DNA of 64,000 bases from Oceanococcus sp. HetDA_MAG_MS8 (GTDB lineage Bacteria; Pseudomonadota; Gammaproteobacteria; Nevskiales; Oceanococcaceae): assembly GCA_019192445.1 (NCBI GenBank), contig JAHCMK010000002.1:434001-498000 (forward strand), written 5' to 3'. The notes beneath the pieces were generated by a model. That model had not been told where the DNA came from and ran no database searches. It was given only the letters and a program-made list of their open reading frames with translations. A program made the translations under genes and the position numbers. The first letter of the stretch is position 1. The number at the start of each line of letters is the position of its first letter. Below, piece after piece: positions 3,587 to 57,696 of the stretch.

Positions 3587-5046
3587 CAGGCTTCCCCTCC
3601 GCCCAAGGCAGCGCGAATGACAGCTTGATCCGAGAAGGGCTGCCGCTGCCCGTTTAGATCTTGATAGTCTTCATGGCCCTTACCGGCGACCAGCACAATG
3701 TCGGCCTCGTGGGCCTGCTCCAGCGCGTGTTGAATGGCCTGGGCGCGGTCATGTTCCCAGGATCCAGCGCGCGGGTTCTTCAGGCCCTGACGCATATCCG
3801 CAAAAATTTGCTCGGGATCTTCGCGGCGCGGGTTGTCGTCGGTGACCCACCAACGGTCGGCTAATTCTTCTACTGCAGCAGCCATTAATGGGCGCTTACC
3901 GCGATCACGCTCGCCACCGCAGCCAAACACACAGACCAGCTCGCGCGGTCTGTGCAGCCGCAACGCGCTTAGGACAGAGCGGAGCGCGTCCGGGGTGTGG
4001 GCATAGTCCACCACGGCTGTAGGCTGACCCGCAGCGCCAATCACTTCCATGCGCCCGCACACGGGACGCAAGCGGGGCAAGGCCTGGAGGATGTCCTCAA
4101 CCGGCGCTCCGGCCGCCTCAGCCAAGGCTGCCGCTGCCATGGCATTGCCGGCATTAAACCCGCCCAACAGTTTGAGCTGAATACGCTGCTTAAGCTCGCC
4201 AACCGCCAGCTCCAGGCCCAGACCGCTGGAGTCCGCCGTCACGGAAAGCAAGCGCCAACGCGCCTCTGTTGCCGCCCCATAGAAGCGGACGCGCGCTGCC
4301 TGCTCTACCTGTTTGGCCGCGCGTCGCACCATGGCATCGTCGCCGTTGAGGTGCACGGTTTGAACACCAGGCCAGTTCAGTAGCCGTTTCTTCGCCGCAT
4401 GATAAGCCGCCACCGAACCATGAAAATCTAGGTGATCCCGGCCGAGGGTGGTTAAGGCCACATGCGCAAAGGGAAGCCCAGCCACCCGCCCCTGTGCCAA
4501 GGCATGTGACGAGACCTCCATAGCCACGGCCTGCATGCCAGCATCGCGCGCCCGCCCCAGAAGCGCTTGCAAACGCAAGGGATCAGGCGTGGTCAGACTG
4601 GCGTCCTCGGCTCCCTCACCAAGGTCCAAGCCCAAAGTCCCCAAAGTGGCACATGGAATAGCGCTGGCCCGTAGCAGCTGGGCGCAATAATGAACCACGG
4701 AGCTTTTGCCATCGGTGCCGGTCACCCCCACGAGAGTGAGCTGCTCTGCAGGATGCCCGTGCAGACGCGCCCCCAGCTCGGGCAATTTCTCGGCCAGCCC
4801 CTGCACAGCAATATGCGGCACAGCAGAGTCCGCAACAGCCGGCGCGCCCTGGGGGTCGTAGAGCACGGCTGCAGCACCCTTATCTACGGCATCAGGAGCA
4901 AATGTCAGCCCGTGATGATGCAGCCCCGGCACAGCGCAAAAGACCGAGCCAGGCTGCACATCTAAGCTGTTGAGCGTGAGGTGAGACACGGGAATTGTGG
5001 CCACGTCGCTGGCCCAGCCCTGAAGCAGTTCTGGCAGCGCCATCAT
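3586..5046 (-). CDS. murE: UDP-MurNAc-L-Ala-D-Glu:meso-diaminopimelate ligase (MurE)
   Basis: Adds the third stem-peptide residue to the murein precursor in the cytoplasm. 486 residues with the P-loop GVTGTDGKSSVVH (about residues 108-120). The motif DDNPRREDP contains DNPR, the signature associated with meso-diaminopimelate rather than lysine specificity, so Gram-negative type DAP peptidoglycan is expected. The gene overlaps the ftsI stop by four bases and the murF start by one base. Two ATG codons are adjacent at the start; the first is used here. Confidence 0.97.
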   Translation of the reverse strand: MMALPELLQGWASDVATIPVSHLTLNSLDVQPGSVFCAVPGLHHHGLTFAPDAVDKGAAAVLYDPQGAPAVADSAVPHIAVQGLAEKLPELGARLHGHPAEQLTLVGVTGTDGKSSVVHYCAQLLRASAIPCATLGTLGLDLGEGAEDASLTTPDPLRLQALLGRARDAGMQAVAMEVSSHALAQGRVAGLPFAHVALTTLGRDHLDFHGSVAAYHAAKKRLLNWPGVQTVHLNGDDAMVRRAAKQVEQAARVRFYGAATEARWRLLSVTADSSGLGLELAVGELKQRIQLKLLGGFNAGNAMAAAALAEAAGAPVEDILQALPRLRPVCGRMEVIGAAGQPTAVVDYAHTPDALRSVLSALRLHRPRELVCVFGCGGERDRGKRPLMAAAVEELADRWWVTDDNPRREDPEQIFADMRQGLKNPRAGSWEHDRAQAIQHALEQAHEADIVLVAGKGHEDYQDLNGQRQPFSDQAVIRAALGGGEA

Positions 5047-49735: not shown

Positions 49736-50887
49736 TTAGCTCAGCTCCAAAGGCTGTGTTTCAGCAGCCAGTTTGCCGCGCTCTTTGGTGGCGGTGCCGG
49801 TAAGCACAAAGCCTAAGGTTTCGCCACTTTGGGCCTTGTACCGCGCAACCCGGTTGGGCGCCTCGCCTTCCAATTCCCAGTCGCCCTCGGCATCTCGCGG
49901 GGGTGCACACACAATGGTGGGCAGAACCGGCGTCTTGACGATGACCGGCATCACCGGCCAGCTCACGGGAGTGGCTTCGCCGGCCAAAGTTTTGGCCAAG
50001 GCGCGTGCGCACTGGGTGATCGGCAAGATATACGGCAGTACATGGCCGCACACTTCAGCCACATCACCGAGTGCGTAGATATCGTTGGCTGAGGTTTGCA
50101 GCATGCGGTTCACGCGAATACCGCGTCCACAGTCCAGGCCTGCGGCTTGCGCGGGAGCCGTGTTGGGCACCAAGCCCACGGCCGAAAGCACCAGATCGGT
50201 ATGCAGCTCTTGGCCATTATCCAAACGCACGGTGAAGCCGTCATCGTCGCGCGACACGCTCGCCACGGTGCGCCCAAAATGAAAGCGGGCTCCGGCCTTT
50301 TCCAGGGCCGCTTGTAGATCTTGCGCGGGCTGCTCGGGGAGCAAGGTGCCCAGCGGATGCTGGAGCGGGTCGATCAAAGTCACCCGATGGCTGCTCGCCA
50401 GCAAATCGTTGGCGTACTCGCAGCCAATGAGCCCGGCGCCAATAATTAGCACATGTCCGCCGCCGGGAAGCTGCTCACGAAAGCGGGCGTAGTCCAGGCG
50501 GTTGTTGACGTGCAGCACGGCGTCTACAGCATCACCCTCTAGAGGCAGTTCGCGGCAGGATGCACCATTGGCCAAGACCAATTGGCTGTAAGACAACTCG
50601 GAGCCATCATCCAAAAACAGCGTGTGCGCAGCCGGGTCGATGCTGCGGATACGCACCTGGGTACGCAGCGTGGCTTGGTAATCCGCGGCGACCTTGTCTG
50701 GCGCCGCCATCACCAACTCATCGGCCGACTTATTCGCGGTGAGCGACTTTGACAGGTTGGGCTTATAGTAGGCCGCACCGTCGTCCGCTGTAATGAGGGT
50801 GAGCGGCGTGTCGGCGTCTAGTTTGCGCCACTCACGTGCCAGCGTGAGGCCAGCATGGCCGGTGCCGACAATGACCAGGCCGCTCAA
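49736..50887 (-). CDS. rubB: Rubredoxin-NAD(+) reductase family FAD protein
   Basis: Pyridine nucleotide-disulfide-type flavoprotein that would pass electrons from NADH to the rubredoxin encoded four bases upstream. 383 residues: FAD motif VIVGTGHAGLTLA at the N-terminus, NAD-binding HVLIIGAGLIGCEYA (about 146-160), and the second FAD motif NDIYALGDVAEVCG. In alkane-oxidising bacteria this pair serves AlkB monooxygenases; no alkB is in this window, so the terminal acceptor is unknown. Confidence 0.88.
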   Translation of the reverse strand: MSGLVIVGTGHAGLTLAREWRKLDADTPLTLITADDGAAYYKPNLSKSLTANKSADELVMAAPDKVAADYQATLRTQVRIRSIDPAAHTLFLDDGSELSYSQLVLANGASCRELPLEGDAVDAVLHVNNRLDYARFREQLPGGGHVLIIGAGLIGCEYANDLLASSHRVTLIDPLQHPLGTLLPEQPAQDLQAALEKAGARFHFGRTVASVSRDDDGFTVRLDNGQELHTDLVLSAVGLVPNTAPAQAAGLDCGRGIRVNRMLQTSANDIYALGDVAEVCGHVLPYILPITQCARALAKTLAGEATPVSWPVMPVIVKTPVLPTIVCAPPRDAEGDWELEGEAPNRVARYKAQSGETLGFVLTGTATKERGKLAAETQPLELS

Positions 50888-51057
50888 ATCTCAACCATTT
50901 CAAAGTCGGACTTCGGAGCGCCACAATCGGGGCAGGTCCAATCATCGGGAACGTCGTCCCATGCTGTACCCGGCGGAATACCTTCGTCTGGCATACCCAG
51001 GGCTTCTTCGTAAACGAAGTCACAGACCAAACAACGCCACTTGCGCTGACCACTCAT
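50884..51057 (-). CDS. rubA: Rubredoxin
   Basis: Small iron protein with one Fe bound by four Cys. 57 residues from the ATG at 51057 (GGAG-like AAAGGAGC just upstream). The two knuckles are CLVCDFVYEE and CPDCGAPKSDFE, with the rubredoxin signature GIPPGTAWDDVPDDW between them. The frame continues upstream but homology starts here. Overlaps rubB by four bases. Confidence 0.95.
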   Translation of the reverse strand: MSGQRKWRCLVCDFVYEEALGMPDEGIPPGTAWDDVPDDWTCPDCGAPKSDFEMVEI

Positions 51058-51186
51058 GATGCGCTCCTTTATAGGGAGGGGAATTGATTTGCAGCATGGC
51101 CGAGATGGAAGGCATTGAGCAACCATGTCATCAGCCGCTGGCAAAGTATAGCCGGAGCACCTGCGGAGTGTTCTCACACAAGGTAT

Positions 51187-51212
51187 CATCCGCATATCCG
51201 GATACACGGATG
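51187..51212. promoter_or_regulatory. 26-bp dyad operator upstream of metH
   Basis: A core palindrome TATCCGGATA (51195-51204) is flanked symmetrically by CATCCG (51187-51192) and CGGATG (51207-51212); 11 of 13 base pairs of the dyad match. It ends 11 bases before the metH start codon and touches the GGAG ribosome site. Such a site fits a dimeric repressor; ArsR-family SahR, which controls methionine-cycle genes in several Proteobacteria, is a candidate by analogy only. No regulator gene is adjacent. Confidence 0.55.
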
Positions 51213-51223
51213 GAGTCCGTCAT

Positions 51224-52258
51224 ATGTCCCTCAACGAAACCCTCGCGCAACGCATTTTGATACTGGATGGGGCCATGGGCACCCAAATTCAGGAGCACAA
51301 CCTGAGCGAGGCCGATTATCGCGGCAAGGAGTTTGCCGACTGGCCTTCCGACCTCAAGGGCAACAACGATCTGCTGTCCTTAACGCAGCCAGACCTCATC
51401 CGCGATATTCACACCACCTACCTGCAGGCGGGTGCGGACATTGTGGAGACTAACACCTTTAACTCCACCTCCATTGCTCAGGCGGATTACGCTATGGAGG
51501 AGCAGGTGACCGCGCTGAATGAGGCCTCAGCGCGGCTGGCGCGTGAAGCCTGCGATGCCGTGGCGACCCCGGACAAGCCGCGCTTCGTGGCTGGCGTGCT
51601 CGGCCCTACCAACCGCACCGCATCGATTTCACCAGACGTGAACGACCCCGGTAAGCGCAATGTGAGCTTTGCCGAGCTGGTGCAAAGCTACACCGAGGCT
51701 TTAGCCGGGCTGATCAAGGGCGGCGCGGACCTGATTCTCATCGAAACCATTTTCGACACGCTCAACGCTAAAGCCGCCGTCTATGCGGTGGAGGATTACT
51801 TCGGCAGTCATGCACGTCTGCCGGTGATGATCTCCGGCACCATCACCGATGACTCGGGGCGCACCCTCACTGGGCAAACCACGGAAGCCTTTTATAACTC
51901 GCTGCGTCATGCAAAGCCGCTGAGCTTCGGCCTGAACTGTGCTTTGGGGCCAGATAAGCTGCGCGCTTATGTGTCCGAGCTGTCGCGGATTTCCGAAGCC
52001 TATGTCTCAGCGCACCCCAATGCCGGACTGCCGAATGAGTTCGGCGAGTACGACCTTGGCCCCGAGGAAATGGCGGCCCAGATCCGCGAATGGGCCCAAG
52101 CCGGCCTGCTGAACATCGTGGGCGGGTGCTGCGGCACCTCGCCAGACCATATCCGCGCCATCGCCGCTGCCGTCGCCGACTGCCCTCCCCGCCAACGCCC
52201 CCAGCTCCCTCCAGCCATGCGCCTGTCCGGCCTTGAGCCCTTTGTCGTAGCTGCCTAG
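51224..52258 (+). CDS. metH: Methionine synthase, homocysteine-binding module (split MetH, N-terminal part)
   Basis: Zn-dependent homocysteine methyltransferase barrel, normally residues 1-350 of MetH. 344 residues, ATG with GGAG 8 bases upstream. Motifs: [35 protein letters not shown], and the zinc cysteines in GLNCALGP and [10 protein letters not shown]. The protein stops at [11 protein letters not shown], exactly in the linker that joins this barrel to the folate barrel in E. coli MetH. The remaining domains are encoded 699 bases downstream after a GxxExxY element. Confidence 0.95.
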
Positions 52259-52271
52259 AGCGAAGATGAGC

Positions 52272-52892
52272 CGCAGATTGACGCAGATTGGCGCAGATTG
52301 GGGTAGAGAAAGTCCGCTACTCCACCCAGATGCCGTAGCTCTGCTGCATGAGCAAGCCACACAAAGACTGGCAGACCCATGCAGTGATTGGCGCGGCTAT
52401 GGAAGTGCATCGCCAGCTCGGAGGCGGTCTTTTGGAACGGGTGTACCAACAAGCCCTAGCCGTCGAATGCGAAATGCGCGATATCCCCTTTCGCACCGAA
52501 GTCCCGCTCAGAGTGCATTACAAAGGGCGTCCGCTTCCTGCTCAGTATCGAGCGGATCTGCTTTGCTTTGGTCGGGTGATCGTCGAGTGCAAAGCCAAAC
52601 AGGCCATTCTGGCCGAACACATCGCACAGGCACTGCATTATCTGCATCTCACGCGGATGCCCATCGCGCTCGTACTCAACTTTGGCACTCGCTCCCTCGA
52701 GTGGCAGAGAGTTGTGCTCTCGAGCCAGCGCTAAGCGCAAGCGCGGGGTTTCATCAGTCACTGCGGGTATCAGGCTCTGCAAAAAGGGCCTTCGTGATTC
52801 GAGTCCCCATCAAAGGCTTTGATCAGGCTGGTCCCCATGGCTTCGCGCTGCAACGCCACGCCCTAATCTGCGGAAATCTGCGCCAATCTGCG
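52272..52892. mobile_element. GxxExxY cassette bounded by inverted triple iterons
   Basis: Left end: three copies of GCAGATTG with exact 10-bp spacing (52273, 52283, 52293). Right end: three copies of AATCTGC, the complement, also 10 bp apart (52865, 52875, 52885). Between them lies only the GxxExxY gene. The whole unit of about 620 bp sits in the linker between the two halves of metH. Mobility is inferred from the inverted ends and the position; no transposase is encoded. Confidence 0.5.
52348..52734 (+). CDS. GxxExxY family protein
   Basis: 128-residue member of the GxxExxY family, small proteins with a PD-(D/E)XK-like core and unknown function. The naming motif appears as GLLERVY (about 28-34), preceded by HAVIGAAMEVHRQLGGG. 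The nuclease-like strand pair follows as YRADLLCFGRVIVECKA (about 67-83, Asp and Glu-x-Lys). Flanked by inverted iterons and placed between the two metH genes in the same direction. Confidence 0.9.
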   Translation: MSKPHKDWQTHAVIGAAMEVHRQLGGGLLERVYQQALAVECEMRDIPFRTEVPLRVHYKGRPLPAQYRADLLCFGRVIVECKAKQAILAEHIAQALHYLHLTRMPIALVLNFGTRSLEWQRVVLSSQR

Positions 52893-52957
52893 GCCCCTGC
52901 TTTCCGCTGTCTTGAGGAACAGCCCTTCTGCGCATCCTCGCACCCACCCCACAAAGT

Positions 52958-55612
52958 ATGTCTGTTATGAGCCAAACACCTATCCAATTCGTCAATGTTG
53001 GTGAGCGGACCAATGTCACGGGCTCGGCGCGTTTTCGGCGGCTGATCAAGGATGGTGATTACGACACCGCTTTGGAGGTGGCCAAGCAGCAGGTGGAAGC
53101 CGGTGCTCAGGTGATTGACGTGAACATGGACGAGGGCATGCTTGATGCCAAGGCGGCCATGGTGCGCTTTTTGAACCTGGTGGCGGCGGAGCCGGATATA
53201 TCCCGCGTGCCCATCATGATTGACTCCTCCAAGTGGGAGGTGATCGAAGCCGGGCTGCAGTGCATCCAGGGCAAGGGCATCGTCAACTCCATTTCGCTCA
53301 AAGAAGGCGAAGAGCAGTTTTTAGAGCACGCCCGCAAAATCCGCCTGTATGGCGCCGCCGTGGTGGTGATGGCTTTTGACGAAGACGGCCAGGCCGATAC
53401 CTGCGCCCGCAAGGTGGAGATTTGCCAGCGTAGCTACAAGCTGCTTACCGAAAAAGCCGATTTCCCGGCGGAAGACATCATCTTTGACCCGAATATCTTC
53501 GCTATTGCCACCGGCATCGAAGAACACAACAACTACGCCGTGGACTTTATTGAGGCCACCAAGGAAATCCGCGCTACCTGCCCTGGCTGCCATATCTCCG
53601 GCGGCGTCTCCAATGTGAGCTTCTCCTTCCGGGGTAACGAGCCCGTCCGCCAGGCCATCCACTCGGTGTTTCTGTACCACGCGGTGCGTGCGGGTATGGA
53701 CATGGGCATCGTCAATGCCGGGCAGCTGGCTGTGTATGACGACCTGGATGCCGAGCTGCGGGAGCGTGTGGAGGATGTGGTGCTCAACCGCCGCGACGAC
53801 GCCACCGAACGCCTGCTGGAAACCGCCGAGCAATACCGCGGCCAGGCCGCTACCGAGAAAACGGTAGACAACATGGCCTGGCGGGAAAAGCCCGTTGCTG
53901 AGCGCATTACCCATGCGCTGGTCAAAGGTATTGATCAGTTCATCGTGGATGACACTGAAGAGATTCGCCTAGAGATCGCGGCCCGTGATGGCAAGCCCCT
54001 AGAGGTGATCGAAGGCCCCCTCATGGACGGCATGAACGTGGTGGGCGATCTGTTTGGCGCCGGCAAAATGTTCTTGCCACAGGTGGTGAAGTCGGCACGG
54101 GTGATGAAAAAGGCGGTGGGTCATCTCATCCCCTTCATTGAGGCCGAGAAATCGGGCGACGCCCAAAGCAACGGCAAGATTTTGATGGCCACCGTCAAAG
54201 GCGATGTACATGACATCGGCAAAAACATTGTGGGCGTGGTGCTCCAATGCAATAACTTCGAAGTGATCGACCTGGGCGTGATGGTGCCGGCCGACAAAAT
54301 CATCAGTGCCGCCCAAGAACACAATGTGGACATCATCGGTTTGTCTGGACTGATTACGCCCTCACTGGACGAAATGGTGTTCTTGGCCAGCGAAATGGAA
54401 CGCCTTGGCATGGACATCCCGCTGCTCATTGGTGGTGCCACTACCTCTAGAGCCCATACCGCGGTGAAGATTGACCCGGCTTACTCCGGCCCCGTGGTTT
54501 GGGTGAAAGATGCCTCCCGCTCGGTGCCTGTAGCCGCCAATCTGCTCTCGAAAACTGGTCGGGCCAAGCTCATGGACCAAACCCAGTTGGAATATGACGG
54601 CATTCGCGAGCGCCATGCGGCTAAGCGGGGACGCGAGAAGTTTGTGAGCTTGCTGCAGGCCCGCGCCAACGCCGATGCTTTGGACCATGCGCGTATTCCC
54701 CAGGCTCCGGCCACCTTAGAGCGCCAGATTCTCAAGCCTTATCCCATTGCCGAGCTGCGCCAGACCATCGACTGGACGCCATTTTTTATTACCTGGGAGA
54801 TGAAAGGCCGTTACCCCGACATTCTGAACAACCCCAACTATGGTCCGGAGGCGCGCAAGCTATTCGCCGATGCCCAAGCCATGCTGGATCAGATTGAGGC
54901 CGAAAACTGGCTGGAAGCGCGCGCCGTATGCCAAATGTTCCCGGCCCAGCGCCAGGGCACCGACGACATCCAGATTCAGACCGCAGACGGGCCGGTGGTG
55001 TTGCATAACCTGCGCCAGCAATCCGAGCACCGCCCCGGTGTACCGCACCATTGTCTGGCCGATTACATCGCCCCTTCCGATGGCACGCCAAAGGACCACA
55101 TGGGCGCCTTTGCGGTGGGCATTTTCGGCGCCGCCGAACGTTCCAGGGCCTACAAAGAGGCCGGAGACGATTACAACGCCATCATGATCGAAGCCTTGGC
55201 CGACCGTCTGGCTGAAGCCTTTGCCGAGCATCTGCACCAAAAGGTGCGCCAGGAAATTTGGGGTTATGTCCCTAATGAAGGCCTGGATAATGCCGAGCTG
55301 ATCGCCGAGAAGTACCAGGGAATTCGCCCCGCACCCGGCTACCCCGCCTGCCCTGAACACACGGAAAAAGACACCTTGTGGCAGGTGCTGGATGTAGAAG
55401 GCAGCATTGGTATGCAGCTCACCGATTCCTACGCCATGTGGCCTGCGGCAGCGGTGAGCGGCTGGTATTTCGCGCATCCACAGTCGCAATACTTCGTGCT
55501 GGGCCGCATTGATAAAGACCAAGTCGAAGACTATGCCCAGCGTAAAGGTTGGACTCTGGAAACCGCCGAGCGCTGGCTGGCTCCGTATCTGGGCTACGAC
55601 CCCGAAGACTAA
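52958..55612 (+). CDS. metH: Methionine synthase, folate/cobalamin/activation modules (split MetH, C-terminal part)
   Basis: 884 residues corresponding to E. coli MetH from about residue 355 on. Order: pterin-binding barrel ([28 protein letters not shown]-like [13 protein letters not shown]; about 8-290), cobalamin cap, Rossmann B12 domain with the DxHxxG motif in [14 protein letters not shown] (about 413-426) and [13 protein letters not shown], and the SAM activation domain (about 570-884; [15 protein letters not shown] near 790). The start is ATG 52958 or 52967; neither has a clear ribosome site. It must work with the separate homocysteine module. Confidence 0.95.
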
Positions 55613-55712
55613 CCCGGCTCTGCACCGTCGCCGTGTTGGTTAATGTGGCGGTAGATGCGGTGAGGCGGCGCAGTCGTAATACACTGGGCCGGGTTTCACG
55701 CACGCCAGCAGC

Positions 55713-55949
55713 ATGGATTTCGGGCCAATTGCCAACTACTTGCCCCATCGGGTGATCAAGCGTCGTATTCGTGCGGCCGCTGTGCGCCGGGTCCGCAAAG
55801 ACTTAGTTCTGGCCGGGCGCAAGGAAGAAGATCTGCCTAGCCAAGACTTGGAATACCTCTTGGCCGATGCGGAAAAAGATGTGATTGCCGAGCTCCAACG
55901 CACCGGCTTGCTGGGCGCGCTGGCCCTGCTTGGCATTAACCTTTTTTAA
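55713..55949 (+). CDS. Small conserved-looking protein of unknown function
   Basis: 78 residues, not recognised. Begins MDFGPIANYLPHRVIKRRIRAA; the middle is highly charged (VRKDLVLAGRKEEDLPSQDLE) and the C-terminus hydrophobic (RTGLLGALALLGINLF), as in small membrane-associated proteins. Codon use fits the neighbours. It is 100 bases after metH and 6 bases before the next gene, so the two probably form an operon. Confidence 0.6.
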   Translation: MDFGPIANYLPHRVIKRRIRAAAVRRVRKDLVLAGRKEEDLPSQDLEYLLADAEKDVIAELQRTGLLGALALLGINLF

Positions 55950-55955
55950 ACGGTT

Positions 55956-56390
55956 ATGTCTTGGTATCGCCTAGCACGGGCAACGGTGCTGCTACAGCTG
56001 GGGCGCAAGTACCGCCGTCGCCTGCTACGGATGATGTTTGCCCTGGGCTTGGCACTGACCACCAGTTGGGCCTACCCCGATGTAGCAGCCTTACTGGCCG
56101 CCCAAGCGCCGCAGTGGGCGGTAGCCGCTTTGGTGGTAAAGACGGCGGTGATCTTCGGCGGCTTCGTCGCGGTTTTCTGGGAGCTGAGCCAAATACTCGC
56201 AGGCCGTGACGGCCAACCGCTGGCAAAACCCAAGCCGGAGGAGTCTGACGCACCCGCTAAAAATGCTAGGCTGCACAGCGCTGCCACGCTTGGCAATAAG
56301 GGCGAGACTCAAGCCCCGCGCCCCTTAGATGCGCTGGCGAAGAAACCTAGGCTACGTTCGCGGCGAGAGAAGATTTTGCAGCGCGACTAA
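55956..56390 (+). CDS. Small membrane protein of unknown function
   Basis: 144 residues, not recognised. A basic N-terminus (KYRRRLLRMMF) is followed by two predicted transmembrane helices (about 26-48 and 54-75) and a Lys/Pro/Glu-rich cytoplasmic tail ending KKPRLRSRREKILQRD. It follows the 78-residue gene by 6 bases. Its last 44 bases overlap the 3' end of the convergent PqiA-like gene. Confidence 0.6.
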   Translation: MSWYRLARATVLLQLGRKYRRRLLRMMFALGLALTTSWAYPDVAALLAAQAPQWAVAALVVKTAVIFGGFVAVFWELSQILAGRDGQPLAKPKPEESDAPAKNARLHSAATLGNKGETQAPRPLDALAKKPRLRSRREKILQRD

Positions 56391-57696
56391 GGCGGCGCTC
56401 AAGCAAGGTCGATGACCACAACCCAGCCATGCAAAAGGCAAAGAACAGCAAGAACCCTGGCTGCAGTTCCGTCCCGTTGGTTGTAAGCACTTCGGCACCG
56501 CTCATCGGTTGATTCAACCGCCCCAGCTGACTGTCCATAAGGCCATCAAAACCTAGGTAGGCCATGATGATGGCCACCACCATCACATCCGCCATGGACC
56601 ATTTGGCGGACTTCAAGGCAAAGAAGCGCCGCACCGGGGCATGCGCTGGCGGCTGCGGCCCTAGCAAACTCAGCGCGGCGAGGAGTTTTGTGAGGGGGAA
56701 CAGAACGCTGAAGGTCATCACCGCCACGCCGACCAGCGCCGCACCCAGGTCACCGTCTTGCAGCATCAGCCACACAATATCCAGCACGCTTTTGCTCTGG
56801 AAGTACAAGACCTGGTCGCTGAAGACGATGCGCTCACCCAGCAGCTCCAGCTTGAGCTCACTAATTCGGGCTTCTACATTCAGCATCGGGCAGAGCACCC
56901 CCGCAGCCATCACTGCGGAAATCCCCAATAAGGTCAGCGCCCAGCCCAGGCGCCCCTGATCTAGGCCCTGCCAAATCCCCTGCCGGCTGGCCAGCGTCAT
57001 CTGCAACAGCATCACAAAAAGAGCGCCTAGCAGTACCGCCATCTGCCATTGGGCATGCTGCTGATGCTGCTTCACTTTGGCCAGCAGAACACCGCGGCAA
57101 TAGGCCCACTCTACGCAGTCGTGCTCCAGCTCAATGGCCTCGATGCGCGTACGGTCTACTGCAGTGAAGGTAGATTGCGAGACATCCTCCAGAGCGGTGC
57201 GCAAGAAGGCGCTGAGCTCAGCCCTGGCCTCAGGCTTATCCAGCTCAATTAAGATTTGCTCTGCGTAGTAGGGCGCTTTGTCGCGAATATCTTCAAAGTC
57301 GACCAACAAGTCTTGCAAGCCCTGGCGGAACTTGCCCTGGACGCGTTGCCACCAGTCCCCCTGGGCGTTGCGCTGCCGAATATAGCTATCAATTTCGCGC
57401 AATAGGGTGTCCAACACCCGGCTGAAACTGGCCTTAATGGCGGCGCGGTTTTCTGGCCCTAAATCCAAGGTTTGCACCTTGTGCTCGAGGATGCGGCTAA
57501 TTTCGTCCACCCAGACGCTGGCATCCAAAAGGCCGTATTGAATGTTCTCCAGTTCTGCCTTCTGCTCGCGCAGATGCTGAGCGGCGCGCAGACTGTGAAC
57601 GACCTCATAGGTGCTGAGCAGCACCACCAGGAGCAGCAAGGCCTGAACCACCACTGGCCATAGTGGCGGCTTCGACGCTACTGAAGCCTCAGGCAT
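56347..57696 (-). CDS. PqiA-domain membrane protein with large N-terminal extension
   Basis: 449 residues. An N-terminal transmembrane helix (about 14-32), a long helical periplasmic domain (about 35-210) rich in Glu, Asp and Arg, then four membrane spans (about 217-235, 245-270, 318-345, 368-385 and a last near 415-430). The region FPLTKLLAALSLLG, then AKWSMADVMVVAIIMAYLG is the PqiA-type signature. PqiA proteins belong to MCE lipid-transport systems, but no pqiB/MCE gene is adjacent. The extracytoplasmic helical domain is not part of standard PqiA. Confidence 0.7.
   Translation of the reverse strand: MPEASVASKPPLWPVVVQALLLLVVLLSTYEVVHSLRAAQHLREQKAELENIQYGLLDASVWVDEISRILEHKVQTLDLGPENRAAIKASFSRVLDTLLREIDSYIRQRNAQGDWWQRVQGKFRQGLQDLLVDFEDIRDKAPYYAEQILIELDKPEARAELSAFLRTALEDVSQSTFTAVDRTRIEAIELEHDCVEWAYCRGVLLAKVKQHQQHAQWQMAVLLGALFVMLLQMTLASRQGIWQGLDQGRLGWALTLLGISAVMAAGVLCPMLNVEARISELKLELLGERIVFSDQVLYFQSKSVLDIVWLMLQDGDLGAALVGVAVMTFSVLFPLTKLLAALSLLGPQPPAHAPVRRFFALKSAKWSMADVMVVAIIMAYLGFDGLMDSQLGRLNQPMSGAEVLTTNGTELQPGFLLFFAFCMAGLWSSTLLERRLSRAAKSSLAANVA

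Follow-up and report, generated by a model that had tools for sequence, protein, structure and literature searches.

A gene that lies in two pieces with a smaller gene lodged between them raises a simple question: did the insert break the gene, or did it settle in a gap that was already there? The locus in question here is metH, encoding methionine synthase, in a stretch of 64,000 nucleotides (nt) from Oceanococcus sp. HetDA_MAG_MS8 (contig JAHCMK010000002.1, positions 434,001 to 498,000; this whole stretch is called the window below). An initial annotation, made from the letters of the window, reported that its metH is divided at a domain linker by 699 bases holding one gene of the GxxExxY family, and asked whether this element was the cause of the split or had exploited a pre-existing gap. 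We think it fairly probable that the 699-nt insert is an autonomous copy of a family of miniature elements that is organized like the REPIN/RAYT systems (repetitive extragenic palindromic doublets that form hairpins, and their associated tyrosine transposases), is driven by a PD-(D/E)XK nuclease and has repeatedly used an existing junction. Finding a single-copy gene whose arms have twins scattered over the genome suggests an undescribed family of mobile DNA and not a one-off split gene.

The split metH locus and its cassette

Profile searches bear out the annotated split between the homocysteine and pterin modules, together with its coordinates. TIGR02082 matches metH1 with 519 bits over model positions 2-337 and metH2 with 1198 bits over positions 342-1180; the break thus lies at 337/342, and the two co-directional genes jointly span the model from 2 to 1180 with every MetH domain present (Table 1). 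The gap between them (52259-52957) does contain a single GxxExxY gene, matched by both PF13366 and TIGR04256, and, as had been remarked, the downstream half lacks an obvious ribosome site, in that no purine-rich one is seen by eye 5' of the metH2 ATG. The initial annotation had also considered that this MetH might have lost its function, with a working metE elsewhere. The genome of the window (G000, 3.5 Mb, with the window on contig 2) gives one PF02574 match, and no full-length MetE was found either in this genome, where two weak partial PF01717 matches lie on contig 17 (best E 4.8e-5), or in its congener G001, which has none. The split two-gene MetH is therefore probably a working methionine synthase, and loss of function has no support, the domains being complete and a full-length MetE not having been found.

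Table 1. Features of the metH locus, in window coordinates
Feature	Position	Strand	Description
metH1	51224-52258	+	344 amino acids (aa); homocysteine-binding module of split MetH; PF02574, 340.9 bits
Left arm	52270-52303	+	three 10-nt CGCAGATT units (GCCGCAGATTGACGCAGATTGGCGCAGATTGGGG); inverted repeat I1
GxxExxY gene	52348-52734	+	128 aa; PF13366, 125.8 bits (1.4e-36); TIGR04256, 134.8 bits (1.7e-39)
Right arm	52861-52894	-	three-unit array in inverted orientation; inverted repeats I1 and I3
Whole cassette (arm, gene, arm)	52270-52894	.	fills most of the gap; layout shared by relatives
metH2	52958-55612	+	884 aa; pterin, B12-binding and activation modules; PF00809, PF02607, PF02310, PF02965

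The gene in the gap is the only PF13366 copy in G000. Its protein, which lies above the curated cut-offs of both families (35 bits for TIGR04256 and 22 bits for PF13366), carries D70, E80 and K82, that is, the catalytic D ... E-x-K of PD-(D/E)XK nucleases. In an alignment of 12 rows (A1; GxxExxY proteins were taken from the first aligned residue, not from the start codon) E80 is invariant, and D70 and K82 are present in at least 90%. Catalytic residues deviate in G043, which has N for D, and in G031 and G041, which have R for K (E-x-R). An AlphaFold model of the protein, built from 2 sequences, has a pLDDT (predicted local distance difference test score) of 38, too low for the model to be of use, and a search by sequence gave no convincing match to the GxxExxY protein in the PDB. 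On either side of the gene the arms form a 34-nt inverted repeat that is 88% complementary, with 18 nt of the right arm at 100% (I3). The two-unit arm motif CGCAGATTNNCGCAGATT occurs four times in the window when up to 2 mismatches are allowed (0.03 expected), always in the cassette arms.

Arms accompany GxxExxY genes and recur without them

Inverted flanks are common among GxxExxY genes. With genes drawn from the order, class and phylum, 49 of 62 had flanks scoring above all 100 shuffles, as against 1 of 54 control windows; the test left out the two G008 cassettes, whose flanks end at contigs, and loci L216, L220, L222, L230, L236 and L240. Within the order the arm unit tracks the GxxExxY subfamily, being CAGATT or CAGATG in the subfamily found at metH (the metH subfamily), CGCAAAT in the G027b type, CGCAAAGG in the G054 type and different again in others. 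Inside the metH subfamily, G011, G027 and G043 have CAGATG units at 10-nt spacing, and G029 and G039 have CAGATT units at 9-nt spacing. A further subfamily (L213, L238, L239 and L241) has CACGGAAA-, CGCGAAA- or CACGAAA-type arms, and one of its members, L213, adjoins a gene that by eye is DNA methyltransferase-like.

The arms of the metH subfamily are also found dispersed. The G000 genome holds 61 matches to the two-unit motif (at most 1 mismatch), 4 inside the metH cassette and 57 outside it, and the reversed pattern, used as a control, gave none in the same genome. The 57 fall into eleven stretches, mostly with several arms in alternating orientation. These CGCAGATT-type stretches lie on contigs C1-C6 (L265-L275), none has a GxxExxY match, and some hold locally duplicated doublets that are at most 93% identical.

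Dispersal and gene go together. We counted the pattern CAGATKN{1,2}CRCAGATK in 85 genomes of the order and called it abundant at 12 or more matches. Twelve of the 13 genomes with a metH-subfamily gene have 12 to 220 matches, whereas only 2 of the 72 without it reach 12 and the other 70 have 0 to 8 (Fisher p = 9e-12 for co-occurrence, uncorrected for relatedness). Fifteen genomes in which every GxxExxY gene is of another subfamily or unplaced have at most 3 matches each; G072, G076 and G079 are among them, counted without tree placement. The contrast extends to near relatives: 57 and 55 matches in G000 and G001 against 1 and 1 in G002 and G003 (MetH family f1), 51 in G044 against 0 in G061 (genus g18), 117 in G012 against 0-24 in ten congeners (genus g10) and, with G031 and G037 as exceptions, 12-220 against 1-3 in genus g7. 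In the two genomes with E-x-R proteins, G031 and G041, loss of the catalytic lysine coincides with the absence of a clear left arm and with low counts of the dispersed motif (2 and 12).

We read the dispersed arms in three genomes, in 11 stretches of G000, 13 of G005 and 7 of G044, and found that their unit spacing is mostly that of the resident cassette: 10,10 in 39 of 65 arms in G000, 9,9 in 20 of 30 in G005 and 9,10 in 8 of 16 in G044. For each of the three cassettes, the best-scoring dispersed-arm profile is the one from its own genome. Outer bases are shared with the cassette in G005 (ATCC, 27/30) and G044 (AACC, 8/16); in G000 they agree in part only, with GGCC or AGCC in 28/65 while TTCC is found in 24/65. 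As many as 90 of the 111 dispersed arms lie outside open reading frames of at least 150 aa, although such frames occupy 66-88% of the loci, and all ten doublets that were folded form hairpins with z of -5 or below relative to single-base shuffles. The 36 doublets measured are 76-299 nt long; some in G044 reach 600-710 nt. By eye, the bodies of three G044 doublets (L289, L293 and L294; 604-710 nt) resemble another dispersed repeat family, and the only cargo seen in the longer G044 doublets, again by eye, was repeat-like frames.

Turnover at metH and other sites of the cassette

MetH is split in 25 genomes of the order, belonging to families f1, f3, f4, f5 and f6, and 11 of these (G000, G001, G005, G008, G011, G027, G029, G031, G039, G041 and G043) carry a GxxExxY gene in the gap; they account for 11 of the order's 13 genomes with the metH subfamily. 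A twelfth cassette in a metH gap is that of G121, a metagenome-assembled genome of another order (evidently the same sequence as locus L150), and in all 12 the cassette is co-oriented with metH. The gap of G014 retains, by eye, a decayed GxxExxY gene and a right arm, and those of G019 and G021 hold arm-like scars. In G002 and G003 the gap is 3 nt, and other split genomes have short non-coding gaps with no GxxExxY match. In the fused-MetH family, f2, open frames of 1000 aa or more contain 48 of the 54 metH1 matches, and the other six lie in shorter ones. Two gaps are occupied differently, by an MscS-like channel gene in G010 (L048 3112-4086) and by a DinJ/YafQ-like toxin-antitoxin pair in G037 (L034 732-1331), both named by eye; the G037 genome keeps 54 arm-motif matches.

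The cassette turns over at this site. MetH1 is 97% identical between G011 and G043, as against 58% for GxxExxY, and 96% identical between G008 and G031, as against 56-57%; over both groups, G011/G043 and G008/G031/G041, the ranges are 96-97% for MetH1 and, except for the G031/G041 pair, 55-58% for GxxExxY. The host topology is rejected for 12 cassettes in an approximately unbiased (AU) test (p = 2e-8, with G008 represented by its second copy only) and for two smaller sets (p = 0.010 and 0.014), so that vertical descent of the metH cassettes is rejected. In the gene tree, which left out the fragments G076 and G079 and the short extra G437 and into which G072 never entered, G011 and G027 are sisters (94/95) and G043 has no supported placement. 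Because arm type at metH departs from the host tree and G011 and G027 are sisters on the gene, gene and arms appear to move together, replacing each other at the metH site. The G008 gap is spread over the ends of two contigs (L196 and L197) with a GxxExxY gene at each edge, apparently two copies, whose 5' parts are near-identical before they diverge (63% protein identity overall); the pair seems to consist of mosaic cassettes or to reflect a mixed assembly.

The subfamily is not confined to metH. With its arms it also stands between sufB-like and sufC-like genes (L101 1444-1854 and L099 1426-1848) in the f2 genomes G044 and G012, making this a further operon joint that the cassette occupies. 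In G237 it lies between an hsdM-like gene and another gene, and in G167 between ABC-transporter-like and ligase-like genes. At all four of these sites, where neighbour-gene names were assigned by eye, the cassette gene is co-oriented with its neighbours.

A possible mechanism and what weighs against it

In the mechanism that we propose, a small PD-(D/E)XK nuclease, its gene enclosed by a pair of inverted arms that each comprise three 9-10-nt units, would act on those arms; the gene-less doublets of similar arms scattered over the genome would belong to the same element family. The nuclease may recognise its own arm variant, either as a folded hairpin or as paired sites, and by cutting or nicking would allow arm-bounded DNA to be copied into short intergenic gaps; recombination at occupied sites could then swap one cassette for another. 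The metH gap would serve as a safe joint, with both halves being complete enzyme parts and the cassette lying in the reading direction. As the cassette sits co-directionally between genes that jointly supply a complete MetH, the host would lose nothing essential.

Several observations weigh against this model. No transposition, excision or cutting has been observed. Target-site duplications were sought at 15 doublets from G005 and G044 and not found (mean match 2.73, with 2.64 for permuted flanks), which argues against a standard cut-and-paste transposase. The bodies of 36 dispersed doublets show no similarity between loci and none to the GxxExxY gene; the doublets are therefore not simple deletion derivatives. 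Co-occurrence has exceptions in both directions, as G037 (54) and G022 (24) have many matches without a metH-subfamily gene and G031 carries the gene yet has only 2, while G043 has N for the catalytic D and yet 26 dispersed-motif matches. Thirteen of the 62 GxxExxY genes lack significant arms in the inverted-repeat test; in one of these, G237, a unit scan finds an arm on each side, with C-terminal residues of the protein read as the right arm. At metH itself, G031 and G041 keep one cassette (GxxExxY 91% identical), and the AU test rejects neither the placement of every metH-linked cassette in one clade (p = 0.093) nor that of G031/G041 beside one or the other G008 copy (p = 0.18 and 0.13). Finally, a regulator that simply accompanies the gene could bind at the arms.

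Did the insertion cause the split?

The copies seen today look as though a gene junction that already existed had been occupied repeatedly, one cassette replacing another, which favors the second of the two options posed at the outset. The G000 copy as the cause of the split is unsupported because the cassettes at this site do not follow the host tree. Comparing loci with and without the cassette, to which the initial annotation had looked for an answer, cuts both ways, since splits without a cassette are common and relatives with scars or a decayed gene exist too. An ancestral insertion may have caused the split, since f1, f3 and f6 all include cassette holders and the tests do not reject one split common to this clade and G121; these two facts count against a pure use of a gap.

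We consider it rather unlikely that a cassette inserted into an ancestral fused metH and split it, with later replacement or loss leaving the split genes. The MetH tree groups the split families f1, f3, f4 and f6 (bootstrap 82; f1+f3 99, f4+f6 100) beside f2. The scars in G019 and G021 and the decayed gene in G014 would fit such a history, as would G002 and G003, whose metH1 and metH2 share a reading frame, the metH2 ATG following after a stop and one codon. G121 has both split and cassette, and the tree joining it to the split clade has the highest p of the four trees compared (AU p = 0.69), although its placement outside the order (p = 0.32) is likewise not rejected. Set against this is the fact that cassette and host histories differ, and for that reason the genes of today do not reveal whether the ancestor had a cassette. 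No cassette holder occurs in f4, and the part of the gap sequence that was inspected in f4, G002 and G003 showed no relic of an arm. Among 80 named loci, 17 are split (L164 and L175 are counted here; their halves overlap, hence look fused), and 15 of these, of Alteromonadales type, are split at the same linker with gaps of at most 88 nt, overlaps included, and no GxxExxY match; the other two are L150 and L172, of which L172 is evidently G010. In G007 (f5) the break lies 5' of LSGLEP (L051 around 4421-4544), leaving LSGLEP at the start of metH2, and its grouping into the split clade is rejected (p = 7e-4); nested as it is among fused relatives on MetH, its split is probably independent.

Other explanations

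It is improbable, in our estimation, that GxxExxY is a freestanding homing endonuclease aimed at the conserved metH junction, with the arms secondary. The predominance of the metH gap among carrier genomes of the order (11/13) speaks for this, as do the highly conserved coding sequence flanking the junction and the different cassettes that sister species hold at the identical point. However, two genomes of f2, the fused-MetH family, carry the subfamily at the suf junction, elsewhere its neighbours are hsdM-like or ABC-transporter-like genes, and the dispersed gene-less arms occupy many unrelated gaps.

There is a similarly small chance that the arms act in RNA, as processing or regulatory hairpins by which the gene is set apart from the operon transcript in the manner of rRNA intervening sequences, with something else dispersing them and the nuclease as cargo. 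Strong folding of the doublets and the uniform co-orientation of the cassette with metH would be expected of such hairpins. A cargo gene, on the other hand, does not predict that the arm unit follows the subfamily, that spacing follows the resident cassette or that dispersal follows the gene, and no riboswitch or other RNA family of Rfam was matched within positions 50000-56500. That a small hypothetical gene landed between two genes by chance, beside unrelated repeats, is very improbable: the metH gap does take other genes, as in G010 and G037, but the motif excess in the window, the joint occurrence of gene and arms across the 85 genomes, the spacing match and the inverted-flank test all contradict it.

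Comparison with known systems

GxxExxY is a named but unexplained family. The gene studied here is a clear member of TIGR04256 and PF13366, and those entries name the motif and the fold superfamily without arms or dispersed partners. Our literature searches, in which few subscription journals were covered, returned nothing on GxxExxY arms or dispersed repeats, and the family is rare in the literature searched, with the name GxxExxY in two papers, PF13366 in one and TIGR04256 in none; a passage on reverse transcriptases mentions it merely as a neighbour domain. Freestanding homing endonucleases are small nuclease genes at conserved gene junctions that are subject to replacement at the site. Unlike them, the cassette is bounded by cognate inverted arms and has gene-less copies dispersed through the genome.

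An article on Coxiella describes its 23S rRNA intervening sequence as a small selfish insert with one short open reading frame (PMC4990558). The cassette differs from it in lying at the junction of two protein genes, in belonging to another protein family and in having dispersed gene-less copies. There is precedent for MetH in parts: MetH functions on separate genes are mentioned in one study (PMC7857596). What sets the G000 locus apart from such a split MetH is that its split is occupied by a cassette of mobile type; the Phaeobacter system differs in having the MetH-like domains as single proteins (PMC12366255). The metH site can be regarded as a natural experiment on mobile DNA entering, or making, joints in essential multi-domain genes.

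We put forward tentatively, as somewhat short of an even chance, that GxxExxY genes with cognate multi-unit arms constitute a widespread undescribed mobile class, in which a nuclease of about 120 aa operates without a transposase, subfamilies have their own arm codes and insertions have contributed to the splitting or shaping of operons, metH among them. Tying the family to cognate arms and dispersed copies gives it a testable role. Among the closest known counterparts is the pairing of REPINs, described in PMC3116915 as extragenic inverted-repeat doublets, with RAYT transposases. As in that system (PMC3116915), a resident gene and extragenic hairpin doublets occur in one genome with the repeat variant matched to the resident gene, and hairpin-forming inverted doublets outside genes were found in all three genomes that we read. 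The cassette lacks a RAYT between its arms, PF13366 being the sole family of that gene (no RAYT search was made elsewhere in the genome), and its protein belongs to the PD-(D/E)XK nuclease superfamily and not to the tyrosine transposases. Its arms, unlike those of REPINs, consist of three tandem 9-10-nt units, and the doublet bodies are unrelated between loci; the 15 doublets examined also lack the target-site duplication of classical insertion sequences and transposons. If our interpretation is correct, the GxxExxY cassettes would be another system of the REPIN kind, the second, with an enzyme of unrelated origin at its core.

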